Position numbers and translations under genes: made by a program
Source of the DNA: a virus
Length of the DNA stretch: 63,818 nt
IMG/VR virus record: IMGVR_UViG_3300050821_007542
Location: 1-63,818 of that record
Reading direction: 5' to 3' (one strand)
Notes under the pieces: model-generated
Told to the model about the DNA's origin: nothing
What the model saw: only the letters and a program-made list of their open reading frames with translations
The model's database searches: none
Shown here: positions 38,371 through 63,592 of the stretch, piece after piece
Numbering within the stretch: the stretch's first letter is position 1
Layout: every line of letters begins with the position of its first letter

Positions 38371-38568
38371 ATGAGCGGTTCAGGAAAGCCCGGTAAGATA
38401 TTCAAGATCAGAGTAGTCTCCACAGGTGTAACGAGCGCAACCATTCAAGCCGAAAGTGAGGACATCGCTTATCTTGTCCCCGGAAACGATTATATGGTGC
38501 AAGTCACTCCTGTTGGTGGCGGCAGCGGGATTGGCAGCGGCAAGCCCTCTGCCCAATCAAGTAGTTAG
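38371..38568 (+). CDS. Small beta-rich protein
   Basis: This 65-residue protein starts two bases after the previous stop, with an AGGAGG site inside the end of that gene. A single beta-type domain (KIRVVSTGVTSATIQAESED, DYMVQVTPVGG) ends in a Gly/Ser tail. The family is not recognised. It is overlapped at its 3' end by the next membrane protein frame. Confidence 0.55.
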   Translation: MSGSGKPGKIFKIRVVSTGVTSATIQAESEDIAYLVPGNDYMVQVTPVGGGSGIGSGKPSAQSSS

Positions 38569-42272: not shown

Positions 42273-42496
42273 ACCACACTCCTTCGATTCCTTGCTATCG
42301 CCTGACACGTCTCCTGATGGCGCAGCAGCGACGCCCAATCCAGAAACTCTTCATGACAGAAGTGGCAGACCTCGTTCCACGTCGGCAGGCTGGTTTCCAG
42401 CATCTGCACCTCGTTGAGCGCCTTCTTCACCTTCTTCTCCAGCAGCAGTCTCTCCACTTCCTGTACTGAGTCCCGGAACCGGGCCAGATTTAACAT
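42269..42496 (-). CDS. Small C2HC zinc-finger protein overlapping the polymerase end
   Basis: This 75-residue protein has an N-terminal coiled helix and then VCHFCHEEF ... LLRHQETC, a C-x2-C-x12-H-x4-C finger of classical spacing. An AGAGGA site lies seven bases before the ATG. It overlaps the last 146 bases of the polymerase gene in another frame, a long overlap for this compact genome. The finger suggests DNA or RNA binding, perhaps with the polymerase. Family not recognised. Confidence 0.6.
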   Translation of the reverse strand: MLNLARFRDSVQEVERLLLEKKVKKALNEVQMLETSLPTWNEVCHFCHEEFLDWASLLRHQETCQAIARNRRSVV

Positions 42497-45131
42497 TGAT
42501 TTCCTCTCTACCGTTAGGATTCGACGCCGACTTCGCGCCTAAGTTCTTGCCCACCGTCACGCTGACAGCGCACCAGAGTCCATTCATTGTCGGAGAGGGC
42601 GCTTCCATGAGGGACTTTACTGTATGTATACATTCTTCGACAAGGTTATTCTTGCAGCAGAATCTATAAGAATCGTGGATGGTGTTGACCAGCCCATATC
42701 GCTCGTCCAGTCCCTGCTCCGACATCCTGAGCGCCTCGTCCCGCATCATCCCGAACGCGCACGTCGCAGGCAGGTACGCGATCGCCTGCTCCGCCTGGTC
42801 GCCGTTCCGAGGCTGACCTGTACGTGGGTCGAAGTGCATGACGTCCCAGAACCATCTGATCCCGCCGAAAGGTGAGAGCAGGAACGTGTCGTAGTGCGCC
42901 TTCGACACGATCTGCTTGCGGAACCGGACGGTCTTGGGAAAGGACGCCTCCAGCAGCTGGATCATCTGCTTCGCTTCCTTCTCCCCGCTAAAAGACTCCA
43001 TGTACGTGTTATAAAGAGTCCGATAGCCCATGCCAAATCCCCAGCCCAGGATAGTCCGCTTGGCCTTACTGTCCCTAACAGCGCGGTGGTTGCGTTTGAC
43101 CGTGGATAGAAACTCGCGTAGATCGTCGTCCGGCATCGCAAGCAGCTTATCCGGCGATGCGAGCTTGAGAAATTGCGCGGCAAGGAATGAGTGAATATCA
43201 AGCCGCACGACACGCATATAATCGTTATCGTTCGCGAGGTGGGCCAAGGTAAGCGCGTGAAAGGACTTGTGGTCGAACGATACGAATCTGTATCCATCGG
43301 GAGCCTCCATAATCCGCTGGAACTTGTCCGCGAGTCCGGTATCTCTACCCTCTTTCTCATGTTCAGGTGCGTTCTGGACGTTCGGGTCGCGACTCCCTAG
43401 CTGCCACGTCGCGGGGCCGTAGGTGAAGGTCGAGTGGACGCGACCGTCCGGACCCGGTGCCCACCCATCGACGAACGTAGACTTCATCAACCTTACTTCG
43501 CGGTACCAGATCACCTTGCGGTACAGGGGGTCATGGGTCTTGCGCGCCAGCCGTTCTAGTTCCTTCGCCTCCGAGGTCTCTCTACCCTTCTTTAGGTTGA
43601 TGGGGACAGGATGTCCTCGGTGCTTCATGTAGCGGATAAGTTGCTGCGACGACGGTTTGAAGGGTTCGATGCGGCAGTAGCGCACGACATCGACGCCGTT
43701 CACGGTATCGATACCGAACGTGCGCTGTACTAGACCGTCCAGCACCTTCGGCTCCCGCTTATACCCCTGCTTCGGGTGGACGTTCTTAATCTCGTCCGGC
43801 ACCAGCAGTTGCATCTCCGCATCCGTGACCGCCGCAGCAGCGTCCAGCTCCGACCCGAACGCTATCCTCCGCTCGTCATTAACCGGTATCCCTCTCCGCT
43901 CCATCCGCTCTAGGATCGGTCGCAGGTGGTAGACGTACCTCTCGTAACCATCCCACACTCCCCTGCGTCGCATCTGCTCCGGCAGAGCAGCCAGAATCCG
44001 ATGACAGGCATCCACGTCAGCGCAGCCATACTCGGCCAGATCGACTCCTGCCAAGTGCTTCCAAGGGCGATCCATGCCGTAAAAGCTCGCCACGAACTGT
44101 AGATTGGCAGGCAGATCAGGCTGCATGTGATGCCACATTGCCATTGTGTCGTGCGACTGACCACGGATAGGTAGGCCGTTGTGGACCAGGCGTGGGTCGT
44201 CGAATAGCCAGACGTTATGACCGGCCTTCGGGTTGGGGAGCTGGAGCAGGGCACGGGCGACCTCCATATACTCAGGTGTCGGTGGCAGCGCGATACCATC
44301 TAGCTGTGCGATGCTGAATTGGATCTGAGTCAGGTCGAAGGACTTCTCCTCGTCGCGCTCGTCCTCGTCCATCTCCGCGCTGCTAGGTGTCTCGATGTCG
44401 TAGGTCAGCCACTTGTTGGGCATGTCCTTCGCGAGTCGATAGTAGGACCATGCTGCGTCGAGCGAAGGTCGGGTCAGATAGCTTGTGTTGAGAGGACGGA
44501 AGTCGCGGTCCTTCTCAGTAGCGATCGTCACCGCGCGCTTGATATCATGCGCCAATACGCCGAAGTAGGCGGGCTTCCCCTGACGCAGGAACGACGGATG
44601 AAAGGTCCCGATGACAGGGACGTGCTCGAATCCTGCGATGACACAAGGTAGTACGTACCCGCGGCAGTAACTAATCCCCTGCTTCGCGCCCTCGTAGCCG
44701 GTCAGCTCCCTGAACGCCGTCCCGCCGAGCGCGAGGATACAGCGCCAGTCCTTCTCACGGAGCGTGTCCAGCAGATAAGGTCTGCAATGTTGTATAACTT
44801 CAAATTCATATGACGTATTCGATAGAATATCATGCGGGGGTCTGCACCGAACTATATTAGTCAGCCGAAACATACTTCTATCATAACCACAGCGTTTTAG
44901 GGCACGCTCGAATAGGCTACCCGCTTGGGCTTGAGGTCTTAGAGGTAATCCATCTGCGTCTTCATTCTGGCCCAGAGCTTCTGCACAAACTAATACACCC
45001 GACGTTCCTGCTCCTTCGTTCCTAGACCAACCTGTTTGCGGGTCAGTAATACGAGAAGATTGTCCAATACGGTGTCTCCAATTATCACCCGTACACCCCC
45101 TACACCCTCCCGGTTTATCTAGTCGGCTCAT
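42351..45131 (-). CDS. Uracil-DNA glycosylase-exonuclease-DNA polymerase I fusion
   Basis: The ATG at 45131 (GGAAAGG upstream) gives 926 residues. Residues 1-200 resemble family 4 UDG: C10/C13, EALGQNEDADGLPL, LTNIVRCRPP (91-99) and GTFHPSFLRQ (175-184), with further cysteines C116, C131, C156 and C163. Residues 235-400 are a 3'-5' exonuclease (D245, E247). Polymerase motifs follow: motif A FVSFDHKSFHALTLAH (D620; His625 where E. coli Pol I has Glu710), motif B KAKRTILGWGFGMGY (K691; Leu695 at the Phe762 position; Phe699 at Tyr766), motif C HDS (819-821). The last ~50 residues overlap the zinc-finger gene and look non-conserved. The fusion would read DNA for uracil and replicate it. Confidence 0.85.
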   Translation of the reverse strand: MSRLDKPGGCRGCTGDNWRHRIGQSSRITDPQTGWSRNEGAGTSGVLVCAEALGQNEDADGLPLRPQAQAGSLFERALKRCGYDRSMFRLTNIVRCRPPHDILSNTSYEFEVIQHCRPYLLDTLREKDWRCILALGGTAFRELTGYEGAKQGISYCRGYVLPCVIAGFEHVPVIGTFHPSFLRQGKPAYFGVLAHDIKRAVTIATEKDRDFRPLNTSYLTRPSLDAAWSYYRLAKDMPNKWLTYDIETPSSAEMDEDERDEEKSFDLTQIQFSIAQLDGIALPPTPEYMEVARALLQLPNPKAGHNVWLFDDPRLVHNGLPIRGQSHDTMAMWHHMQPDLPANLQFVASFYGMDRPWKHLAGVDLAEYGCADVDACHRILAALPEQMRRRGVWDGYERYVYHLRPILERMERRGIPVNDERRIAFGSELDAAAAVTDAEMQLLVPDEIKNVHPKQGYKREPKVLDGLVQRTFGIDTVNGVDVVRYCRIEPFKPSSQQLIRYMKHRGHPVPINLKKGRETSEAKELERLARKTHDPLYRKVIWYREVRLMKSTFVDGWAPGPDGRVHSTFTYGPATWQLGSRDPNVQNAPEHEKEGRDTGLADKFQRIMEAPDGYRFVSFDHKSFHALTLAHLANDNDYMRVVRLDIHSFLAAQFLKLASPDKLLAMPDDDLREFLSTVKRNHRAVRDSKAKRTILGWGFGMGYRTLYNTYMESFSGEKEAKQMIQLLEASFPKTVRFRKQIVSKAHYDTFLLSPFGGIRWFWDVMHFDPRTGQPRNGDQAEQAIAYLPATCAFGMMRDEALRMSEQGLDERYGLVNTIHDSYRFCCKNNLVEECIHTVKSLMEAPSPTMNGLWCAVSVTVGKNLGAKSASNPNGREEINVKSGPVPGLSTGSGETAAGEEGEEGAQRGADAGNQPADVERGLPLLS

Positions 45132-45646
45132 ACAACCTTTCCGTTTCGACGACGAAGAGAAACCAAATCCAGATAGCACTTCCTACTACATGTTTGTCTT
45201 CTTGCAGTTCTGTCCCTAAACGGAGTGCCACATATATTGCATGTCTTTTGTCTGCGAACTTCCATCATGGCCGGAGTCGTTTTTCTGTAGTAGGCAACTC
45301 CCAGCTTCGGGTACATCTTCATATATCTGAGTGCATCTTGGGCCTCTAGACGCTTTATATGCAGGTGCGGAAATACGCACGACAGAAATTTCCGCACCTC
45401 ACTCCATCGCATAATCAGTAGAAGATGACAGGTCTTTCTAACTCCCCCTCTATTCACGAAAGATTGGTTAGAATGGATACCCTCTTTAGCCAAGAACTCC
45501 ACGATTATTTCTAGTAACTTTCTACCGCGCTCTCCTGTCTGATAAAGCCCTATTCTAGGAGTAAACGCGCTTTTTCCGAAGGCAACAATCGTCCCTTCAC
45601 CATCAAAGAAACCAGCTAGATAAGCCCAGTTCATTCCTATAGCCAT
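45128..45646 (-). CDS. LAGLIDADG homing endonuclease with C-terminal zinc finger
   Basis: This 172-residue protein has one LAGLIDADG motif, AYLAGFFDGEGTIVAF (residues 9-24), so it should act as a dimer. The C-terminus holds CNICGTPFRDRTARRQTC followed by C in RKCYLD, a four-cysteine finger. Its DNA is AT-rich. It lies between helicase and polymerase genes, overlapping each (10 bases and ATGA). The adjoining 350 bases of the polymerase gene are also AT-rich, as expected from co-conversion. Confidence 0.9.
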   Translation of the reverse strand: MAIGMNWAYLAGFFDGEGTIVAFGKSAFTPRIGLYQTGERGRKLLEIIVEFLAKEGIHSNQSFVNRGGVRKTCHLLLIMRWSEVRKFLSCVFPHLHIKRLEAQDALRYMKMYPKLGVAYYRKTTPAMMEVRRQKTCNICGTPFRDRTARRQTCSRKCYLDLVSLRRRNGKVV

Positions 45647-50865: not shown

Positions 50866-52392
50866 CTACTTCGCCGCCGCCGCCTCTGCCTCATGATGCG
50901 GGACCCTTTTAGTAAATATCCCCGTCCCAAAAGGGTTAATAAGCATGGACGTATCTGAGAAGCATACTTCCTGAAATTGACACTTCGACGGATAGTCGCA
51001 TGACCGACGGTTCTGCACCGTCTCCAGGTGCGTGTCGAGAAAGTCCAGCAACTTGTCCGCATCGCCCTGCTCCCTCACCTGTTCGGCCTCCGACATGACC
51101 TCGAACACTCTCCGTTCCTGCGTCTGCGCCTGCTTCACGAAGGACTGTAGGTCCCTATCCTGCCTGAAGTACGGTAAGGGCATTTGGTACGTACTCGCCA
51201 GCGGGTCCATCTCGACCTCAGGTTGGACCAGCCCCTGCGTAAGCATCTCTATCCATGCCTTCACTCCGCCATTCGCGCTCCAGGCGTCGAACTTACTCCA
51301 GCCCTTACCGAGCGTGTGTCCGCGCAACCGTCCCGTATCCGGCCAGGTGTCCGGACCCTCCCACTTATACCTCCACGCATACTCGCGATCGGTGACGCCT
51401 TCGCGCTGCCATCCACGGATCAGATGGGACTGGGTCAGGTAGGGTCCACCGTCGCCCTGTTGCTCGCGCCGGCCCTTGATTAGAAAGACCATCTGGATGC
51501 CCATGATGCGGGGACGGTCGGGCATCTCTAGCAGCAGCTTAACTTTCGGATGGTCTATATCCACCAAGTCCAGCAGGTCTTTGCGTTCCTGCTCTGACCC
51601 ATTCTGATCCGGACGCTGCTGATGTAAGCAGTCCCACCATTGAACCAGCCGGCGCTCTATCACGGCCGCCTCACTCAGTCCCTGCACGTCATGCCTATTC
51701 TCCCCATCCTTCCGGTAATCCCATCCCGCTGCGGTCTTGAACGAGAGCAGATAGAGGTCACCTGTCGAGCGTTCACGCAGGAGAGCGTCGGCGCAGGCCT
51801 GCAGGTTGACCCTGTCCTTCGCTTTCAGGTCGTCGATAAATTTGCGCGTCTCGGCAACCTCAGCGTCGGTCTGACGCGCACATATAGAGCAGTTACCGTC
51901 GCCGTCCGTATCATTACCAAGACGACAACGCGGACACGTTCCAGTAGACGGATGCGTTATCCATTCTGCGAATCCATTCCAGACATCCTCCCTCTCGACC
52001 TCCAGCACCTCATACTTCTCAACCAGCTCTCCCAGCCCCTTCGCCGCGTACGCTCGCAGCATCCCTTCTACCAGCGCCAGTTGCTCCTCGGCGACGTAAG
52101 CGCCGTCCTCGCCCAGCTCGATATCCAGCCCTCGTGCGGCGAGTTCGGTGCGGTAGCCATCCAGGGCGACCTGCACGGCCCCGTCCACATGGCTCTCTAG
52201 AACGCATCCTAGCGCCTGATATGTCTTCAACAGGAAGGCCAGCCCCTCGTGGGTCCAGCTCCCCGTCGCCAGCGGAATGGTCGCGCGGACCTTCGACAGT
52301 CCGGTCCCGCCCCAGATGTAACCGATATACCTAGCGCGCGGACATCTTTGCGATTCCAGAATTGCCGATCGGGACGTGTAGTAAGTAGTCAA
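50866..52392 (-). CDS. RecB/Cas4-like nuclease with iron-sulfur cysteines and inserted zinc ribbon
   Basis: The start is a TTG at 52392, six bases after GGAGG in GGAGGCATCCC; the frame extends to 52449 without a good site. The 508-residue protein has C17 in LESQRCPRARYIGY, THEGL (about 47-51), D202 and K219 in ADALLRE ... LYLLSFKTA, and C-terminal cysteines in SCDYPSKCQFQEVC. This is the four-cysteine PD-(D/E)XK layout of AddB/Cas4. The second acidic residue before K219 is serine (S217), so the active site may be altered. A zinc ribbon (TCPRCRLGN ... CSIC, about 152-171) is inserted. It probably acts in recombination or DNA end processing. Confidence 0.7.
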   Translation of the reverse strand: MTTYYTSRSAILESQRCPRARYIGYIWGGTGLSKVRATIPLATGSWTHEGLAFLLKTYQALGCVLESHVDGAVQVALDGYRTELAARGLDIELGEDGAYVAEEQLALVEGMLRAYAAKGLGELVEKYEVLEVEREDVWNGFAEWITHPSTGTCPRCRLGNDTDGDGNCSICARQTDAEVAETRKFIDDLKAKDRVNLQACADALLRERSTGDLYLLSFKTAAGWDYRKDGENRHDVQGLSEAAVIERRLVQWWDCLHQQRPDQNGSEQERKDLLDLVDIDHPKVKLLLEMPDRPRIMGIQMVFLIKGRREQQGDGGPYLTQSHLIRGWQREGVTDREYAWRYKWEGPDTWPDTGRLRGHTLGKGWSKFDAWSANGGVKAWIEMLTQGLVQPEVEMDPLASTYQMPLPYFRQDRDLQSFVKQAQTQERRVFEVMSEAEQVREQGDADKLLDFLDTHLETVQNRRSCDYPSKCQFQEVCFSDTSMLINPFGTGIFTKRVPHHEAEAAAAK

Positions 52393-52464
52393 GGGATGCC
52401 TCCAGAGTGTGCCACCGTAGCACTCCTCTCGCTGAAACACAAGACACAAGATGTAGACGGTAGT

Positions 52465-52479
52465 ACCACTATTAGTGGT
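52465..52479. promoter_or_regulatory. Perfect palindrome, probable operator
   Basis: ACCACTA-T-TAGTGGT is a 15-base perfect dyad in the 146-base gap between the divergent nuclease (minus) and ATPase leader (plus). It lies upstream of the likely plus-strand promoter and could bind a dimeric repressor that acts on either gene. No repressor gene was identified. Confidence 0.45.
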
Positions 52480-52513
52480 GTCGTTTCAGATTAATTTACG
52501 GACTTGACAACCG

Positions 52514-52522
52514 TGTTATCCT
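52514..52522 (+). promoter_or_regulatory. Possible extended -10 promoter
   Basis: TGTTATCCT fits an extended -10 (TG-n-TATCCT) and resembles the one before the glycan cassette. A TTGACA at 52504-52509 is too close to serve as its -35. The predicted start of transcription (about 52529) is ten bases before the leader ATG. Confidence 0.35.
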
Positions 52523-52538
52523 GCATATGGAAGGAGTC

Positions 52539-52628
52539 ATGACCTTCCCCGTTGCCGAAACGGACTTACTGGCGGGAGGGTCGATCCTCAAGGCGACCCT
52601 CCTAGACCAGTCCTTGAGGACTAAATGA
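52539..52628 (+). CDS. Leader peptide, 29 residues, coupled to the ATPase gene
   Basis: ATG 52539 opens a 29-residue frame (FPVAETDLLAGGSILK, then LLDQSLRTK) whose TGA overlaps the ATPase start as ATGA. An upstream in-frame ATG at 52527 would add four residues. An AAGGAG lies close to the ATG. The frame runs through the entire pseudoknot that covers the ATPase ribosome binding site, so translating it should open that structure. The peptide itself may have no function. Confidence 0.55.
   Translation: MTFPVAETDLLAGGSILKATLLDQSLRTK
52575..52620 (+). promoter_or_regulatory. H-type pseudoknot covering the ATPase ribosome binding site
   Basis: Stem 1 pairs GGAGGGTCG (52575-52583) with CGACCCTCC (52594-52602). 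The loop TCCTCAAGG (52585-52593) pairs with CCTTGAGGA (52612-52620). Both stems are perfect 9-mers, with connecting loops of 1, 0 and 9 bases. The second stem takes up GAGGA, the binding site of the ATPase gene at 52625. If the full pseudoknot cannot form sterically, the two stems still compete as alternative hairpins. Confidence 0.7.
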
Positions 52629-53803
52629 CTGAAGCTGTTCCAGCCACCAGCTCTACCAATGCAATCAAACTATGGACTTCCCTCACCGACTTCATCAACC
52701 AGTGGTTTCACCAAGCTGACCTAGAAGCCTTCGAGTGCTGTCTTACCGCTGTCGCATCCCACCACGTCAAGACGGCCGAACCGATCTGGCCTATCGTGGT
52801 CGGTCCCTCCGGAAGCGGCAAGACCGTCATCTGTGTTATGTCCTTTAAGACGATCGAGGATCCGAAGTCCCACCTCGTCGGTGATCTAACCCCCAACACT
52901 TTCATCTCTGGACGCAACGGTAACAAGTACTCTCTCCTACACCGATTCGGCTCCGGCGTCATCCTCATGAAGGACATGACCACGATCATGTCGAAGCGCG
53001 ACAATGACCGGAACGAAATAGTCAGTCAGCTCCGCGAGATCTACGACGGCGCCTTCAGTCGCCAGACAGGCAACGGACCCTCTACTCCATGGGCCGGCAA
53101 GCTCACCTTAGTCGGTGCCGCTACCCCTGCCATCTACCGCGCCTGGTCGGTTCTACGAGAACTCGGCGAGCGGTTCTGTTTCATAAACTGGCCGCGGGCC
53201 GACGACGACGGCGTAGCGACTACGGTAGACCGCCAGATCGGACACGAGCAAGAGATCTCAGCTACGATGCAAGGTCTAACCCGCTCTCTAATCGCCACCT
53301 TCTCTCCCAAGACCATCCTTCCTATCCTCTCTGACGCTCAAGCCGAATCCCTCCGCTCCCTCGCCGTCATCGCCGCTCGCGCCCGTACTACCGTGACCCG
53401 CGACAGCAATGGCAAGCGCGACATCATCGAAATCAACTCTCCTGAAGGTATCGGTCGACTTTATAAGTCGCTCGCCGTCGCGGTCAGAGTCCATGCAGCG
53501 CTGTTCAACAAATCTGTGGTTGATGATGATGATGTCAGGATTGGTAAGAGAATTGCTATAGACGCGATTCCGGTCGCAAAATGGCGCTTCCTTTCGTGTC
53601 TAATCGGCAAGAGCGACGTCAGTCAACCCGAGATTCACGCATGGTCTAAGATCCCCCTCGGCTCAATGGATTGGCACGCGGATGAGCTTATAGCTACAGG
53701 ACTTATCGACAAAGCACCGATTGACTACGAGAACCGGTTCTCGCTTGCTCCAGACATCGCTGAGCGCTTCATGAAGGCTGGACTCTGGAAGCAACCTAAG
53801 TAA
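52625..53803 (+). CDS. AAA+ ATPase, possible replication protein
   Basis: This 392-residue protein has Walker A PIVVGPSGSGKTVICVM (about residues 56-72) and a likely Walker B GSGVILMKDMTTIM (about 108-121). The C-terminal third (about 280-390) looks like a winged-helix domain (LSCLIGKSDVSQPEIHAWSK). It is the only plus-strand gene in a 17-kb minus-strand region and is preceded by a leader ORF, pseudoknot and operator dyad, so its dose seems tightly controlled. An initiator or helicase-loader role is possible, as no primase or initiator was otherwise found. Confidence 0.6.
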   Translation: MTEAVPATSSTNAIKLWTSLTDFINQWFHQADLEAFECCLTAVASHHVKTAEPIWPIVVGPSGSGKTVICVMSFKTIEDPKSHLVGDLTPNTFISGRNGNKYSLLHRFGSGVILMKDMTTIMSKRDNDRNEIVSQLREIYDGAFSRQTGNGPSTPWAGKLTLVGAATPAIYRAWSVLRELGERFCFINWPRADDDGVATTVDRQIGHEQEISATMQGLTRSLIATFSPKTILPILSDAQAESLRSLAVIAARARTTVTRDSNGKRDIIEINSPEGIGRLYKSLAVAVRVHAALFNKSVVDDDDVRIGKRIAIDAIPVAKWRFLSCLIGKSDVSQPEIHAWSKIPLGSMDWHADELIATGLIDKAPIDYENRFSLAPDIAERFMKAGLWKQPK

Positions 53804-55168: not shown

Positions 55169-55750
55169 TCATGGTCGCACCGCCCGATACGACTGCAGGC
55201 GCATCCTCATCCTGTCAGCCATCGTCCTGCGCGTCCCCCACCACACCATTAGGAGTCCCAGCCCCAGACACAGCAGAGCCCCCGGCTCCGGCGTTCCTAC
55301 CACGTCGCGCGTGCCGAACTCAATCGAGTCCGTACTAGTCCCCACGCTCAGGTTCACATCAATCGCAATCATGGACTGTTCCCAGACGATATCTTCGCTA
55401 CCGAAGGTGATACTGGACGGTCCGCCCGGCCACAAGTAGAGCGATATCGCCTTCAGGACGGCATCCTCGCTCGCTTGTAGACTCCCCTTCTCCCAATGTT
55501 TCCCCCATGCCAGCGCTTGCGCGTCCAGCAGATTCTCCGCCAGGGATGTATCCACGCCTGCAGCCAGCGGTATAACCGTCCCCGTGTCTAAATACGCTGC
55601 CACTTTCAACACTGGAACGCTATCTGCCCGCGCGTCCGGCGCCAGCACAATCATCGCAATTAAGAGTAGTACTAGACCTACCAGCCATACCGCTGCCTTG
55701 GCGATTTCGGATGCCCATTCCTTGCCTGAAACTTCGCGTGTGAGTGTCAT
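55169..55750 (-). CDS. PEP-CTERM exported protein
   Basis: The ATG at 55750 follows AGGAGG. The 193-residue protein has a hydrophobic signal region (AAVWLVGLVLLLIAMIVL) with a likely cleavage at DARADS, and near the end GTPEPGALLCLGLGLLMVWW followed by GTRRTM, the Pro-Glu-Pro motif, membrane helix and Arg cluster of PEP-CTERM proteins. A further 16 basic residues follow. Host exosortase would be needed to sort it to the surface or matrix. It overlaps the upstream gene by ATGA. No exosortase is encoded here. Confidence 0.75.
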   Translation of the reverse strand: MTLTREVSGKEWASEIAKAAVWLVGLVLLLIAMIVLAPDARADSVPVLKVAAYLDTGTVIPLAAGVDTSLAENLLDAQALAWGKHWEKGSLQASEDAVLKAISLYLWPGGPSSITFGSEDIVWEQSMIAIDVNLSVGTSTDSIEFGTRDVVGTPEPGALLCLGLGLLMVWWGTRRTMADRMRMRLQSYRAVRP

Positions 55751-56136
55751 GCTGCCTCCTTGACCAACTCGACGTAATCCACCTGCTTCCATGAATCCTG
55801 ATACTTGGCCGCCCAACCTGCCAGCTCCTTGTGAAACTTCTTGGCCCATGCTTGCGCGTACAGTACCTCGTTGCGAATCGAAATGATATCGTCAACCGAG
55901 TACCGATCTGGCTCCTTGAATCCGTCCAGCAGATGCGACACCACGAACAGTCGCGCCGCATCATGCACGCTCAATCTCTCCCGACCTAATCCCGCCGGCC
56001 GATGCCGTCTATGTCCGCGTTCGCTCTCGACGTTCATCGCGTGCAACCTGTCCTTCACGTCTGTCCAGCCATCGTGCATGTCTGGTAGCGCGTCGAATGC
56101 CTCACGAATCAACTTAACTTGCTGTGTGTATGTCAT
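55747..56136 (-). CDS. Small hypothetical protein
   Basis: The ATG at 56136 follows GGAGGAGGCATCCGTC. The 129-residue product is helical and charged (TQQVKLIREAFDALPDMHDG, then AQAWAKKFHKELAGWAAKYQ). It overlaps the PEP-CTERM gene by ATGA, so the two are co-expressed. No family is recognised. Confidence 0.55.
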   Translation of the reverse strand: MTYTQQVKLIREAFDALPDMHDGWTDVKDRLHAMNVESERGHRRHRPAGLGRERLSVHDAARLFVVSHLLDGFKEPDRYSVDDIISIRNEVLYAQAWAKKFHKELAGWAAKYQDSWKQVDYVELVKEAA

Positions 56137-60213: not shown

Positions 60214-60888
60214 ATGATAACGAAACGGCTGGCCTGCAAGAAGCTTGGCATCGTCTACAACTCCTACCTGTCGGTCCCGCAGATCACCCCGCTCCTCTCG
60301 GACATCCTCTCAGGGCTGGCTGAACGGTCCCTTCCCGTCGACCCTTACTATTACCTGAACGCATCAGGCGACCCGGACGCGCGCGCTCTCCTGAAGGTCT
60401 ACCACGCAGCGTGGAAGCAGGTCCGGGACATCCTCCCCTTGGAAGCGTTCTGCGTCGCGGCCGGAGTCGAGCCATCCTCCATCCTCGACTCCATCGTCAA
60501 CTCCATCGCGCGCCTGAACGCACTGAATGCAGCGGTCAAACTGAGCGCGTCGCAGCCAGAGGTAGTCCAGACAACGATTGAGGCAGCGCGTGACGTGACC
60601 AATGGCCACAAGGACCGCCGCCTCCACATGCAGGTCTCGGGGCTGATGCCGATGCCCAAAGGTAGCAAGACCGTCATCCAGGTCAACACGAACGCATCCG
60701 CTACCTCGGCGCCGGTCCAGCAGGCTATCGTCGTCCCCGCGCCGGCCCCCGAGCAGACTGTGCGACGGTTGTCAGAGCGACTCCATTCGGTGAAGGGAGC
60801 GCTCCCTGCGACGGCGGAGTCCTTACCTGTGGGACCGTCCATGACGCAGCAGCGTGTCGAGGATGCCGTGCTTGTGGAAGAGGACTGA
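60214..60888 (+). CDS. Terminase small subunit (putative)
   Basis: This 224-residue protein lies three bases before the large terminase, the usual place of the small subunit. Residues about 70-135 are helical (DARALLKVYHAAWKQVRDIL, then SILDSIVNSIARLNALNAAV). The C-terminal third is Pro/Ala-rich. An HTH cannot be confirmed by eye. The assignment is mainly positional. Confidence 0.5.
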   Translation: MITKRLACKKLGIVYNSYLSVPQITPLLSDILSGLAERSLPVDPYYYLNASGDPDARALLKVYHAAWKQVRDILPLEAFCVAAGVEPSSILDSIVNSIARLNALNAAVKLSASQPEVVQTTIEAARDVTNGHKDRRLHMQVSGLMPMPKGSKTVIQVNTNASATSAPVQQAIVVPAPAPEQTVRRLSERLHSVKGALPATAESLPVGPSMTQQRVEDAVLVEED

Positions 60889-60891
60889 CCC

Positions 60892-63138
60892 GTGTATGCC
60901 CCCTCCCGCGTCGCCCAGCGCATCGACGAAGCCCAACGAGAGTTCGGGATCACCCTTGAGTATCACTCCATCGCGGACGTCGAAGCCTTCGAGGACCATC
61001 TCAAGCGCCACAACATGTACACGCTCGACCAGAACGGTGCACCGTCCGGCACCCAACAGTTGACGCAGTTCGAGCATGACTGGATCCTGAACGAGCAATT
61101 ACTGGTCAGCTGCGACGCTCGCTACGCCCTGACCCGCTACTGCTACCTCAAGGACGACGACAACTTCATCCATCGGTTCGACTTCCGGGTCCCGCAGCGG
61201 ATCTTCTTCGACATCATCTCGGACCTGGAGGCGTCCGGTCGCACCCTAGAGTTCATCATCCTCAAGGCGCGCCAGCTCGGCATGTCCACCCTCGTCGAAC
61301 TCCTCATCGGACTCCGGATCATCTTCGGCTACGGTGTCAACGCCGTCATCGGCTCCGCCGACCAGACCAAGACCGCCGAGATGGCGCGGATGATATTCCT
61401 CCTCTACTCCTACCTCCCTATATGGCTCCGTCCTCAACATACCCGCAAGGTGGAGTCCGACCGCGGACTCCTCGCCTTCGGTCACTCTCAGACCTCGGTA
61501 TCGTTCCAGCACGGTGCGCAGATGTCGGGAATCGCGCGCGGCACCACGCCCACGATCTACCATCTCAGCGAGGTCGCGACCTACACCGACGCGGAGAACC
61601 AGATCGAATCCTCCCTCCTCCGCGCCGTCCACGCCTCCCCGAACGTCTTCGGCGCACTTGAATCCTCCGGCGAAGGTGACAAGGGCTGGTGGCCTGATCG
61701 CTGGCGCTCCTCTCGGGACTTCTGGGCGAAGCGCGCTGCCCGACACTGCCCGCTATTCCTCCCGTGGTTCTGCGGGGTCGAAATGTACCCGAAGCGGCAA
61801 TGGATTGACTACGACTTCCCGATGCCTTCGGACTGGCGGCCCAACCAAGACACCCGCCAGCACGTCGCCAAGTGCGAACTCTACGTCGAATCTACGCCTG
61901 CGTTGAAGAAGCACCTGTTGGAGGACCAGCGCCGACGCAACGTCTACCTCGGCCCGACCTGGCGAATGCCGATCGAGCAACAATGGTTCTGGGAGTTCGG
62001 CCACGAAGAAGCCAAGCGCGGCGGGACAACCGGTAAGTGGTACCAAGAGATGTGCGCCGACGATGAAGAAGCGCTGCAACGGTCGATAACGTCAGTGTTT
62101 GGTCATCAGGTCATCCAAGAGATCGAATCTAGGCGCGAGAAGGTAGTGGACATGTTCTGCATCGTCGGACAGTCGATCGAAGCAGACCACGAGCCGCCCT
62201 CGGAGTATATCGACTACGCCCGCGAACGTATCCCTGTCCGCTATACCAATATCCGCGAAGAGTCCTACAGGTGGGAGCTGGTCCCGCTCCTCGAACGTCA
62301 GATCCAGCCGAATGTGAAGGACCCAGGGACGGCGACCGGGATCCTATTCATCTGGGCGCATCCACAGCCTGGTGTCCGGTACAGTATCGGCGTCGACACA
62401 GCAGCGGGTCAGGGTGAGGACTCGACCGCAATCAGCGTCTGGGCCATCGGTCGCAGCGACGACGACCCGGATACACAGGTGGCAGAGTTTGCGAGTGCCT
62501 ACGTCAACCACGTCGAAGCCTTCGCCTTCGTCCTCGCCATCGCCGCCTACTACAAGACCTATATGGATCCTCTAGCCACCCGCTGGAAGGAACCCTACGT
62601 CTCCATCGAACAATTAGCGTCGGTCGGCGACGTGGCCCAGCTCCAGATGGCCAAGATGGGCTACTCCAACTTCCACATGATGAGTCGCTACGACGACAAG
62701 AACCCGCAACGGTCGAAGAAGATGGCCCGCAAGCGCGGATGGTTCACCAACACCTGGTCCCGCCAGATCCTGACGACCTACTTCGTCAACTGCGCCCGGA
62801 ATCTCTGGCTGACGGTCAACTCTCCGTGGCTACTTGAGGAGATGAAGACCTTCGAGGCCAAGGTGACGGCGACCGGTCGTCCTAAGTTGGAGCACGAAGA
62901 GGGCAAGCATGACGACCGTGTCTTCGCCGCGGCGATGGCGTGCTTCTGCCCGCATGACCTTGAAGCGATGGCGGGACGGTCGAAGAAGCGTCCAGTGAAC
63001 CCGTCGGTCCTGCCGCCCCTGAACCTCCAGCCCAGCCGTCCCAGCAACGTGTTCTCCCCGCGCGACCTCCGACAAACAGAGATTGCAACCGTCGACGATT
63101 TAGCGTATGAAATGGACCAGATGGAAAGGTACCGCTAA
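60892..63138 (+). CDS. terL: Terminase large subunit
   Basis: The GTG at 60892 gives 748 residues. EFIILKARQLGMSTLVELLI (about 120-139) is the terminase Walker A variant, and IYHLSEVATYTDAEN the likely Walker B. The nuclease half holds YSIGVDTAAGQGEDSTAISV (about 495-514) with the catalytic Asp and KHDDRVFAAAMACF (about 664-677) with a second acidic site. It cuts and pumps DNA into the head through the portal. It is followed by a small gene and the portal. Confidence 0.9.
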   Translation: MYAPSRVAQRIDEAQREFGITLEYHSIADVEAFEDHLKRHNMYTLDQNGAPSGTQQLTQFEHDWILNEQLLVSCDARYALTRYCYLKDDDNFIHRFDFRVPQRIFFDIISDLEASGRTLEFIILKARQLGMSTLVELLIGLRIIFGYGVNAVIGSADQTKTAEMARMIFLLYSYLPIWLRPQHTRKVESDRGLLAFGHSQTSVSFQHGAQMSGIARGTTPTIYHLSEVATYTDAENQIESSLLRAVHASPNVFGALESSGEGDKGWWPDRWRSSRDFWAKRAARHCPLFLPWFCGVEMYPKRQWIDYDFPMPSDWRPNQDTRQHVAKCELYVESTPALKKHLLEDQRRRNVYLGPTWRMPIEQQWFWEFGHEEAKRGGTTGKWYQEMCADDEEALQRSITSVFGHQVIQEIESRREKVVDMFCIVGQSIEADHEPPSEYIDYARERIPVRYTNIREESYRWELVPLLERQIQPNVKDPGTATGILFIWAHPQPGVRYSIGVDTAAGQGEDSTAISVWAIGRSDDDPDTQVAEFASAYVNHVEAFAFVLAIAAYYKTYMDPLATRWKEPYVSIEQLASVGDVAQLQMAKMGYSNFHMMSRYDDKNPQRSKKMARKRGWFTNTWSRQILTTYFVNCARNLWLTVNSPWLLEEMKTFEAKVTATGRPKLEHEEGKHDDRVFAAAMACFCPHDLEAMAGRSKKRPVNPSVLPPLNLQPSRPSNVFSPRDLRQTEIATVDDLAYEMDQMERYR

Positions 63139-63142
63139 TACT

Positions 63143-63592
63143 ATGCGCAAGCCTGGAACCGTAGCGCCACTCGTGTACTTTCGTTACCCGAACGGTCATC
63201 TGACTCTCGCCCCCTTCACCGACTGTCCTACCCCCGACGGTGCCATTCGCGAAGAGGTCGACACGCTCATCTCCATCGACAAGGTAGTCGACATCCTCCG
63301 GCGACAGGAAGCCGATGCCGCGCAGCGCGAGATGCGCTACGACATGGCGCTGACGAAGCAGCGCGAGCAGGAGATACGGGACAGGATCTACCAACGTATA
63401 AGTTCGAGCGCGACGACTGAGTACGAGCGGGAGTTTCTGCGACTGTATGTCCAGCTACGGGACGAACGGAAGCGGGAGCTGTACCGTCAGCGATTCATGG
63501 AAGCGCAGTGGTACCTGCACGCGCGCGAGAATGACCTCGGTGACCGAGAAGCGGACAAGGAAATGGTCAACCTTGACAAGGTGAATTTCTAG
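63143..63592 (+). CDS. Small charged helical protein between terminase and portal
   Basis: The ATG at 63143 gives 149 residues. After a short N-terminal beta region, residues 55-145 are a highly charged helix (DVILRR-type start, then QREMRYDMALTKQREQEIRD and RFMEAQWYLHARENDL). Its stop abuts the portal ATG. It may be a portal-associated or packaging accessory protein. Family not recognised. Confidence 0.55.
   Translation: MRKPGTVAPLVYFRYPNGHLTLAPFTDCPTPDGAIREEVDTLISIDKVVDILRRQEADAAQREMRYDMALTKQREQEIRDRIYQRISSSATTEYEREFLRLYVQLRDERKRELYRQRFMEAQWYLHARENDLGDREADKEMVNLDKVNF

Follow-up and report, generated by a model that had tools for sequence, protein, structure and literature searches.

The DNA analysed here, referred to as the window, is the 63,818-base sequence of a tailed phage (IMG/VR virus record IMGVR_UViG_3300050821_007542). 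The plus strand carries the terminase, portal and structural genes, and the minus strand a PolA-type polymerase/helicase/exonuclease-like block. In this block, positions 42351–45179 (minus strand) were found to encode an unusual fusion of a PolA-family DNA polymerase with an N-terminal uracil-DNA-glycosylase-superfamily domain (PF03167, residues 57–205). PADLOC gave no convincing match in the survey. One plus-strand gene stands alone in the window: 52625–53803, encoding a P-loop (AAA+-like) ATPase of 392 aa with the Walker A motif GPSGSGKT. No family was matched by this protein, the similarity to Pfam AAA being weak and below the cut-off (E 0.008), and no homologues were found in phages, plasmids, IMG/VR, GTDB genomes or 59 related records. 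An AlphaFold model made from the single sequence had a pLDDT of 34.

Just upstream of the ATPase start, the plus strand contains two perfect 9-bp stems that can form an H-type pseudoknot. The 5′ strand of stem S1, GGAGGGTCG (52575–52583), pairs with CGACCCTCC (52594–52602), and a G–T pair between 52574 and 52603 makes the stem one pair longer (52574–52583 with 52594–52603, 10 bp). Inside the S1 loop lies the 5′ (anti-SD) strand of stem S2, TCCTCAAGG (52585–52593), which pairs perfectly with CCTTGAGGA (52612–52620). The latter strand includes the SD sequence GAGGA (52616–52620), located 4 nt upstream of the ATPase ATG at 52625. The 3′ strand of S1 abuts S2 with no linker, and loop 3 (52604–52611) includes the sequence CCAGT (52607–52611). 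Loop 1 consists of 1 nt, which is short for a 9-bp S2, and the end pairs of S2 may therefore fray. The earlier note had described two perfect 9-bp stems with the SD in the second; both were recovered exactly at these positions, and they form the only perfect 9+9 H-type pseudoknot in the window. Ten Markov simulations gave no perfect knots at 8+8 or 9+9, and none of 1000 dinucleotide-preserving shuffles of the 90 bases upstream of the window ATPase was equally strong. A plain fold of 52527–52640 had a z of −2.7. A programmed −1 frameshift was rejected as an explanation, since a TAA (52622–52624) closes the ATPase frame immediately 5′ of the ATG and the overlap is found only 3′ of the knot.

Because the window ATPase has no homologues, related phages were reached via the terminase and capsid genes of the window. 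All sequences are environmental contigs, and no cultured member of the phage group was found. The two nearest relatives, G001 (IMGVR_UViG_3300046723_000060) and G002 (IMGVR_UViG_3300024283_000173), have the structural half in common with the window, with up to about 90% amino-acid identity; the polymerase, helicase and ATPase genes of the window are not common to them. Both also keep the phage protein encoded at 55169–55849 (minus strand) of the window, which ends in a PEP-CTERM-like tail (TPEPGALLCLGLGLLMVWWGTRR) that suggests a host with exosortase sorting. The place of the window ATPase is taken in G001 and G002 by a lone plus-strand gene for a non-homologous ATPase that belongs to another family, AAA_25 (PF13481). 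Further AAA_25 genes were found in G042, G060, G043 (with its near-copy G036), G045 and G035, the ATPase of the last being 27% identical to that of G001. In phage primase-helicases it is the helicase part that these AAA_25/RecA-type ATPases resemble. By this analogy, and as two tentative instances of the knot stand before O-like initiators (see below), it is plausible that the gene behind the knot serves replication. As the window ATPase has no homologues, its presumed work in replication rests on its position and on the analogy with the relatives.

Other features of these relatives were recorded. In G034 (60246–61172) and G037 (62316–63188; L076 and L096 contigs, terminase orientation) a lone plus-strand cysteine-rich protein replaces the ATPase, and the window-like polymerase/helicase/exonuclease block is present; this protein has the look of a replication protein but matched no Pfam family above the cut-off. 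In G060 the large terminase subunit was matched as two pieces about 1.9 kb apart (L185/L186; G060:C1:44285–48013), which suggests an intron, intein or insertion.

Six of the seven phages with a lone AAA_25 gene (G001, G002, G042, G060, G043 and G045) were shown to contain an H-type pseudoknot of the same layout just before the start, with different stem sequences. The knot of G001 consists of S1 GAAGGGTCGGCT/GGCTGGCCCTTC and S2 TTCTCCA/TGGAGAA, and that of G002 of S1 GAAGGGCTGGT/GCTGGCCCTTC and S2 CTCCAAG/CTTGGAG. The leaders of both keep the CCGTT...AACGG hairpin, and between these close relatives S2 pairs have been lost at one end and gained at the other. S2 is CCTCTGA/TCAGAGG in G042 and CCTCATAG/CTATGAGG in G060. 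The SD lies within S2 in the window, G001, G002, G042 and G060; in G043 (and its near-copy G036) and G045, S2 reaches up to the SD core or ends a little short of it, without covering it. Stem lengths at the ATPase loci are 9–12 bp and 7–9 bp, and the S2/S1 junction is of zero length in all nine instances. As the stems were not aligned by MAFFT, covarying pairs were counted by structural position: among the AAA_25 loci of G001, G002, G042 and G060, double changes that preserve pairing were found at 7/7 S2 positions and 6/9 S1 positions. No such knot precedes the G035 ATPase, so that the element, though common, is not obligatory, and none was found in relatives with a zinc-ribbon protein at this place.

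The pseudoknot taking in the ATPase ribosome-binding site, proposed earlier for the window, has thus been kept by compensatory change in the AAA_25 loci of related phages. The element joins this conserved complementarity to a position at or beside the SD, and it persists before different ATPases in the same group. With its S1/S2 topology, the SD in S2 and compensatory change, it belongs to the SD-sequestering H-type pseudoknots, a structural class and not a homology family. Pairing that is kept despite changes in both the sequence and the kind of ATPase speaks for a genuine RNA switch acting on the replication of these phages.

An energy-ranked search for H-type knots at the start codons of 42 related genomes (16 + 15 + 11) was used to estimate how rare such elements are. 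In 16 genomes with 24,218 start codons, the nine strongest knots comprised seven at these ATPases and two at ORFs of 60–61 codons. A further 8,954 and 8,482 starts gave only two that were equally strong, those of G036 (the same sequence as G043) and of an O-like initiator in G058; both came from the 15 further genomes, and the 11 more genomes yielded none. At the ATPase loci, 0–1 of 1000 dinucleotide shuffles were as strong. GC-rich stems do occur elsewhere, as in the L043/L047 match, a terminator-like hairpin between structural genes with chance SD pairing that was rejected as a candidate, and the knot could likewise reflect accidental pairing within a GC-rich leader or be the hairpin of a transcription terminator. 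Against this, seven phages have the knot at the same place relative to the gene although its sequence differs, the background is about 3 or fewer strong knots in 41,000 start codons, and there is no U-run after S1. Chance complementarity is contradicted by the comparative data, and we regard this explanation as most improbable.

The G058 element lies at contig position 38555 (minus strand), within L218, where the loop of a 15-bp hairpin pairs with the AGGAG of the O-like replication initiator; control of this kind may have arisen here independently. The gene of an O-like protein in G053 also has a knot before it, but a weaker one. No such knot was found at the O-like initiators of nine known phages or at the homologues of the G058 initiator in G014, G022, G050 and G007, and the G058 and G053 instances are therefore tentative.

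A leader frame of 29 codons, from ATG 52539 to TGA 52626–52628 (52539–52628, plus strand), runs through the structure and overlaps the ATPase ATG by ATGA, as the earlier note had observed. Most members also have a frame through the knot, but start codons, frames and ends differ and the peptide is not conserved. In G001 and G002 the frame starts with TTG, ends in ATGA and has no evident SD; in G042 it stops 14 nt inside the gene and in G060 8 nt before it. In the window the leader SD is located only 2 nt from the leader ATG. About 63% of random sequences of the same composition contain an ATG, GTG or TTG frame through such an element. Because the frames differ and arise this often by chance, the leader peptide was not counted in the conserved element, and the control by leader peptide suggested earlier is not supported.

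The same suggestion had drawn on the rep leaders of IncI and IncB plasmids, in which a pseudoknot 5′ of the SD promotes translation, translation of the leader is required and an antisense RNA exerts control (PMC10286972, PMC9977716). Applied to the phage, leader translation would open the structure, and pseudoknot, coupling and antisense RNA would together set the ATPase level. The ATGA-overlapping frame in the window, G001 and G002 fits such a scheme, as does a pseudoknot before a probable replication gene; in the IncI-alpha, IncB and IncL/M leaders (repZ/repY, Rfam PK-repZ), too, a pseudoknot and a short frame lie upstream of a replication gene, and the level of the replication protein is the likely target. 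However, the poor conservation and chance level of the frame and the leader SD, only 2 nt from its ATG in the window and not evident in G001 and G002, speak against it. In IncI plasmids the pseudoknot is required for translation and is disrupted by the antisense Inc RNA (PMC9977716), whereas the phage knot contains the SD. No minus-strand promoter with at least 8/12 matches was found in eight of nine loci, and the window has one weak site, judged by a consensus that may not be that of the host. Searches against Rfam, including PK-repZ, preQ1 and SAM-II, gave no match for the window at the gathering threshold or, in the leader, at E up to 5, and none in the loci of the relatives. Copy control of the IncI/IncB type is accordingly unlikely, and of the earlier reading the knot over the ATPase ribosome-binding site stands, without leader-peptide control or a close IncI/IncB analogy.

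Upstream of the knot, a putative promoter, TTTACG-N16-TATCCT (52495–52522, plus strand), shows 8/12 consensus matches and would place the transcription start near 52529. Promoter-like sites that end 82–102 nt before the gene were found in G001, G002, G043, G045, G053 and G060; the site is weak in the window and stronger in G001 and G043. With these spacings the whole leader would essentially be the knot structure. Further upstream, a 15-nt palindrome, ACCACTATTAGTGGT (ACCACTA...TAGTGGT; 52465–52479), is possibly an operator, and it is kept in shortened form, ACCACTAATGGT, in G001 and G002. The divergent control region 52380–52540, with the palindrome and a ACAAGATG box, can be recognised in both of these phages, where the flanking genes have been replaced on both sides; the regulatory DNA thus predates the genes under its control. 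Searches with DNA patterns taken from this region found only G001 and G002.

An outer stem that the earlier note had overlooked offers a second fold. In the window ACTGG (52568–52572, plus strand) pairs with CCAGT (52607–52611) of loop 3 and lengthens S1 into a hairpin that is incompatible with S2. The outer stem was found in the same place in five of five core members (window, G001, G002, G042 and G060), pairing loop 3 with the bases just 5′ of S1 (CTGG/CCAG, AGGTG/CACTT, AACTGG/CCAGTT and CTGGGC/GCTCAG). Once the hairpin is extended, no loop remains that could span S1; S2 would thereby be excluded and the SD freed, which suggests that the core members have two conformations, with the SD either free or blocked. 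The energy gap between the two folds is about 0.4–6 kcal/mol, a rough value because the pseudoknot term is approximate.

The best reading of these data is that a cis-acting, SD-sequestering pseudoknot limits the translation of a phage replication ATPase. As the SD lies inside the knot, repression of ATPase translation is predicted, and the 5′-terminal ~95 nt of the mRNA probably act as a cis-acting translational switch that meters synthesis of the replication ATPase. In one state, S1 and S2 would form the H-type pseudoknot, bury the SD and lower initiation; in the other, the outer stem would lengthen S1 and use up loop 3, barring S2 and leaving the SD free. The two folds are expected to exchange, and since transcription reaches loop 3 earlier than the SD, the open fold would be the first to arise. 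The trigger may be the ATPase itself, another protein, the folding order during transcription or the passage of ribosomes.

A protein trigger would make the knot an autogenous operator: the ATPase, or else a different replication protein of the phage, would bind the knot in its own mRNA and stop translation, as T4 gp32 does. The arrangement of one gene with one knot agrees with this, and so does the free variation of the stem sequences, as expected if shape is read. A precedent is the 5′ pseudoknot of T4 and RB69 gene 32, likewise a phage replication gene, which is recognised by its product; this knot of ~28 nt precedes an unstructured stretch of UUAAA repeats in which the SD is located, and does not cover the SD (PMC535899), in contrast to the phage ATPase, whose SD lies inside the knot. 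In addition, the knot persists before non-homologous ATPases, so that autogenous control would require ATPase and knot to have co-evolved several times, or some other binder common to all. We therefore consider this a possible but not a favoured explanation.

A small molecule could also set the state of the RNA. In preQ1-I type III riboswitches, an H-type fold pairs the SD in S2 and translation is controlled by SD burial (PMC11625349), and the phage knot has the same topology and SD placement. On the other hand, its stems are much longer than those of H-type riboswitches, the members have no conserved ligand core, with no invariant core nucleotides in loops or stems, there was no Rfam match, and the gene concerned is a probable replication gene and no metabolic gene, where riboswitches of this kind (preQ1-I or SAM-II-like) serve queuosine or methionine genes. 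A riboswitch is thus very unlikely. The phage knot is not assigned to any of these systems, be it the IncI/IncB rep leaders, the H-type riboswitches or the gene 32 operator.

To our knowledge, very few cases of a conserved RNA knot controlling the translation of a phage replication gene are known (T4-type gene 32). The cis-acting switch preferred here yields precise stem-swap predictions, and in this uncultured phage group the RNA element has outlasted its target gene. More tentatively, the two-state switch may be a fixed replication control module of a large uncultivated phage group in which the ATPases are exchanged, serving as a folding timer or a sensor of replication protein. If the two-state reading is true, these phages would possess a compact natural switch of translation, which arose independently as their counterpart of the plasmid rep pseudoknots.
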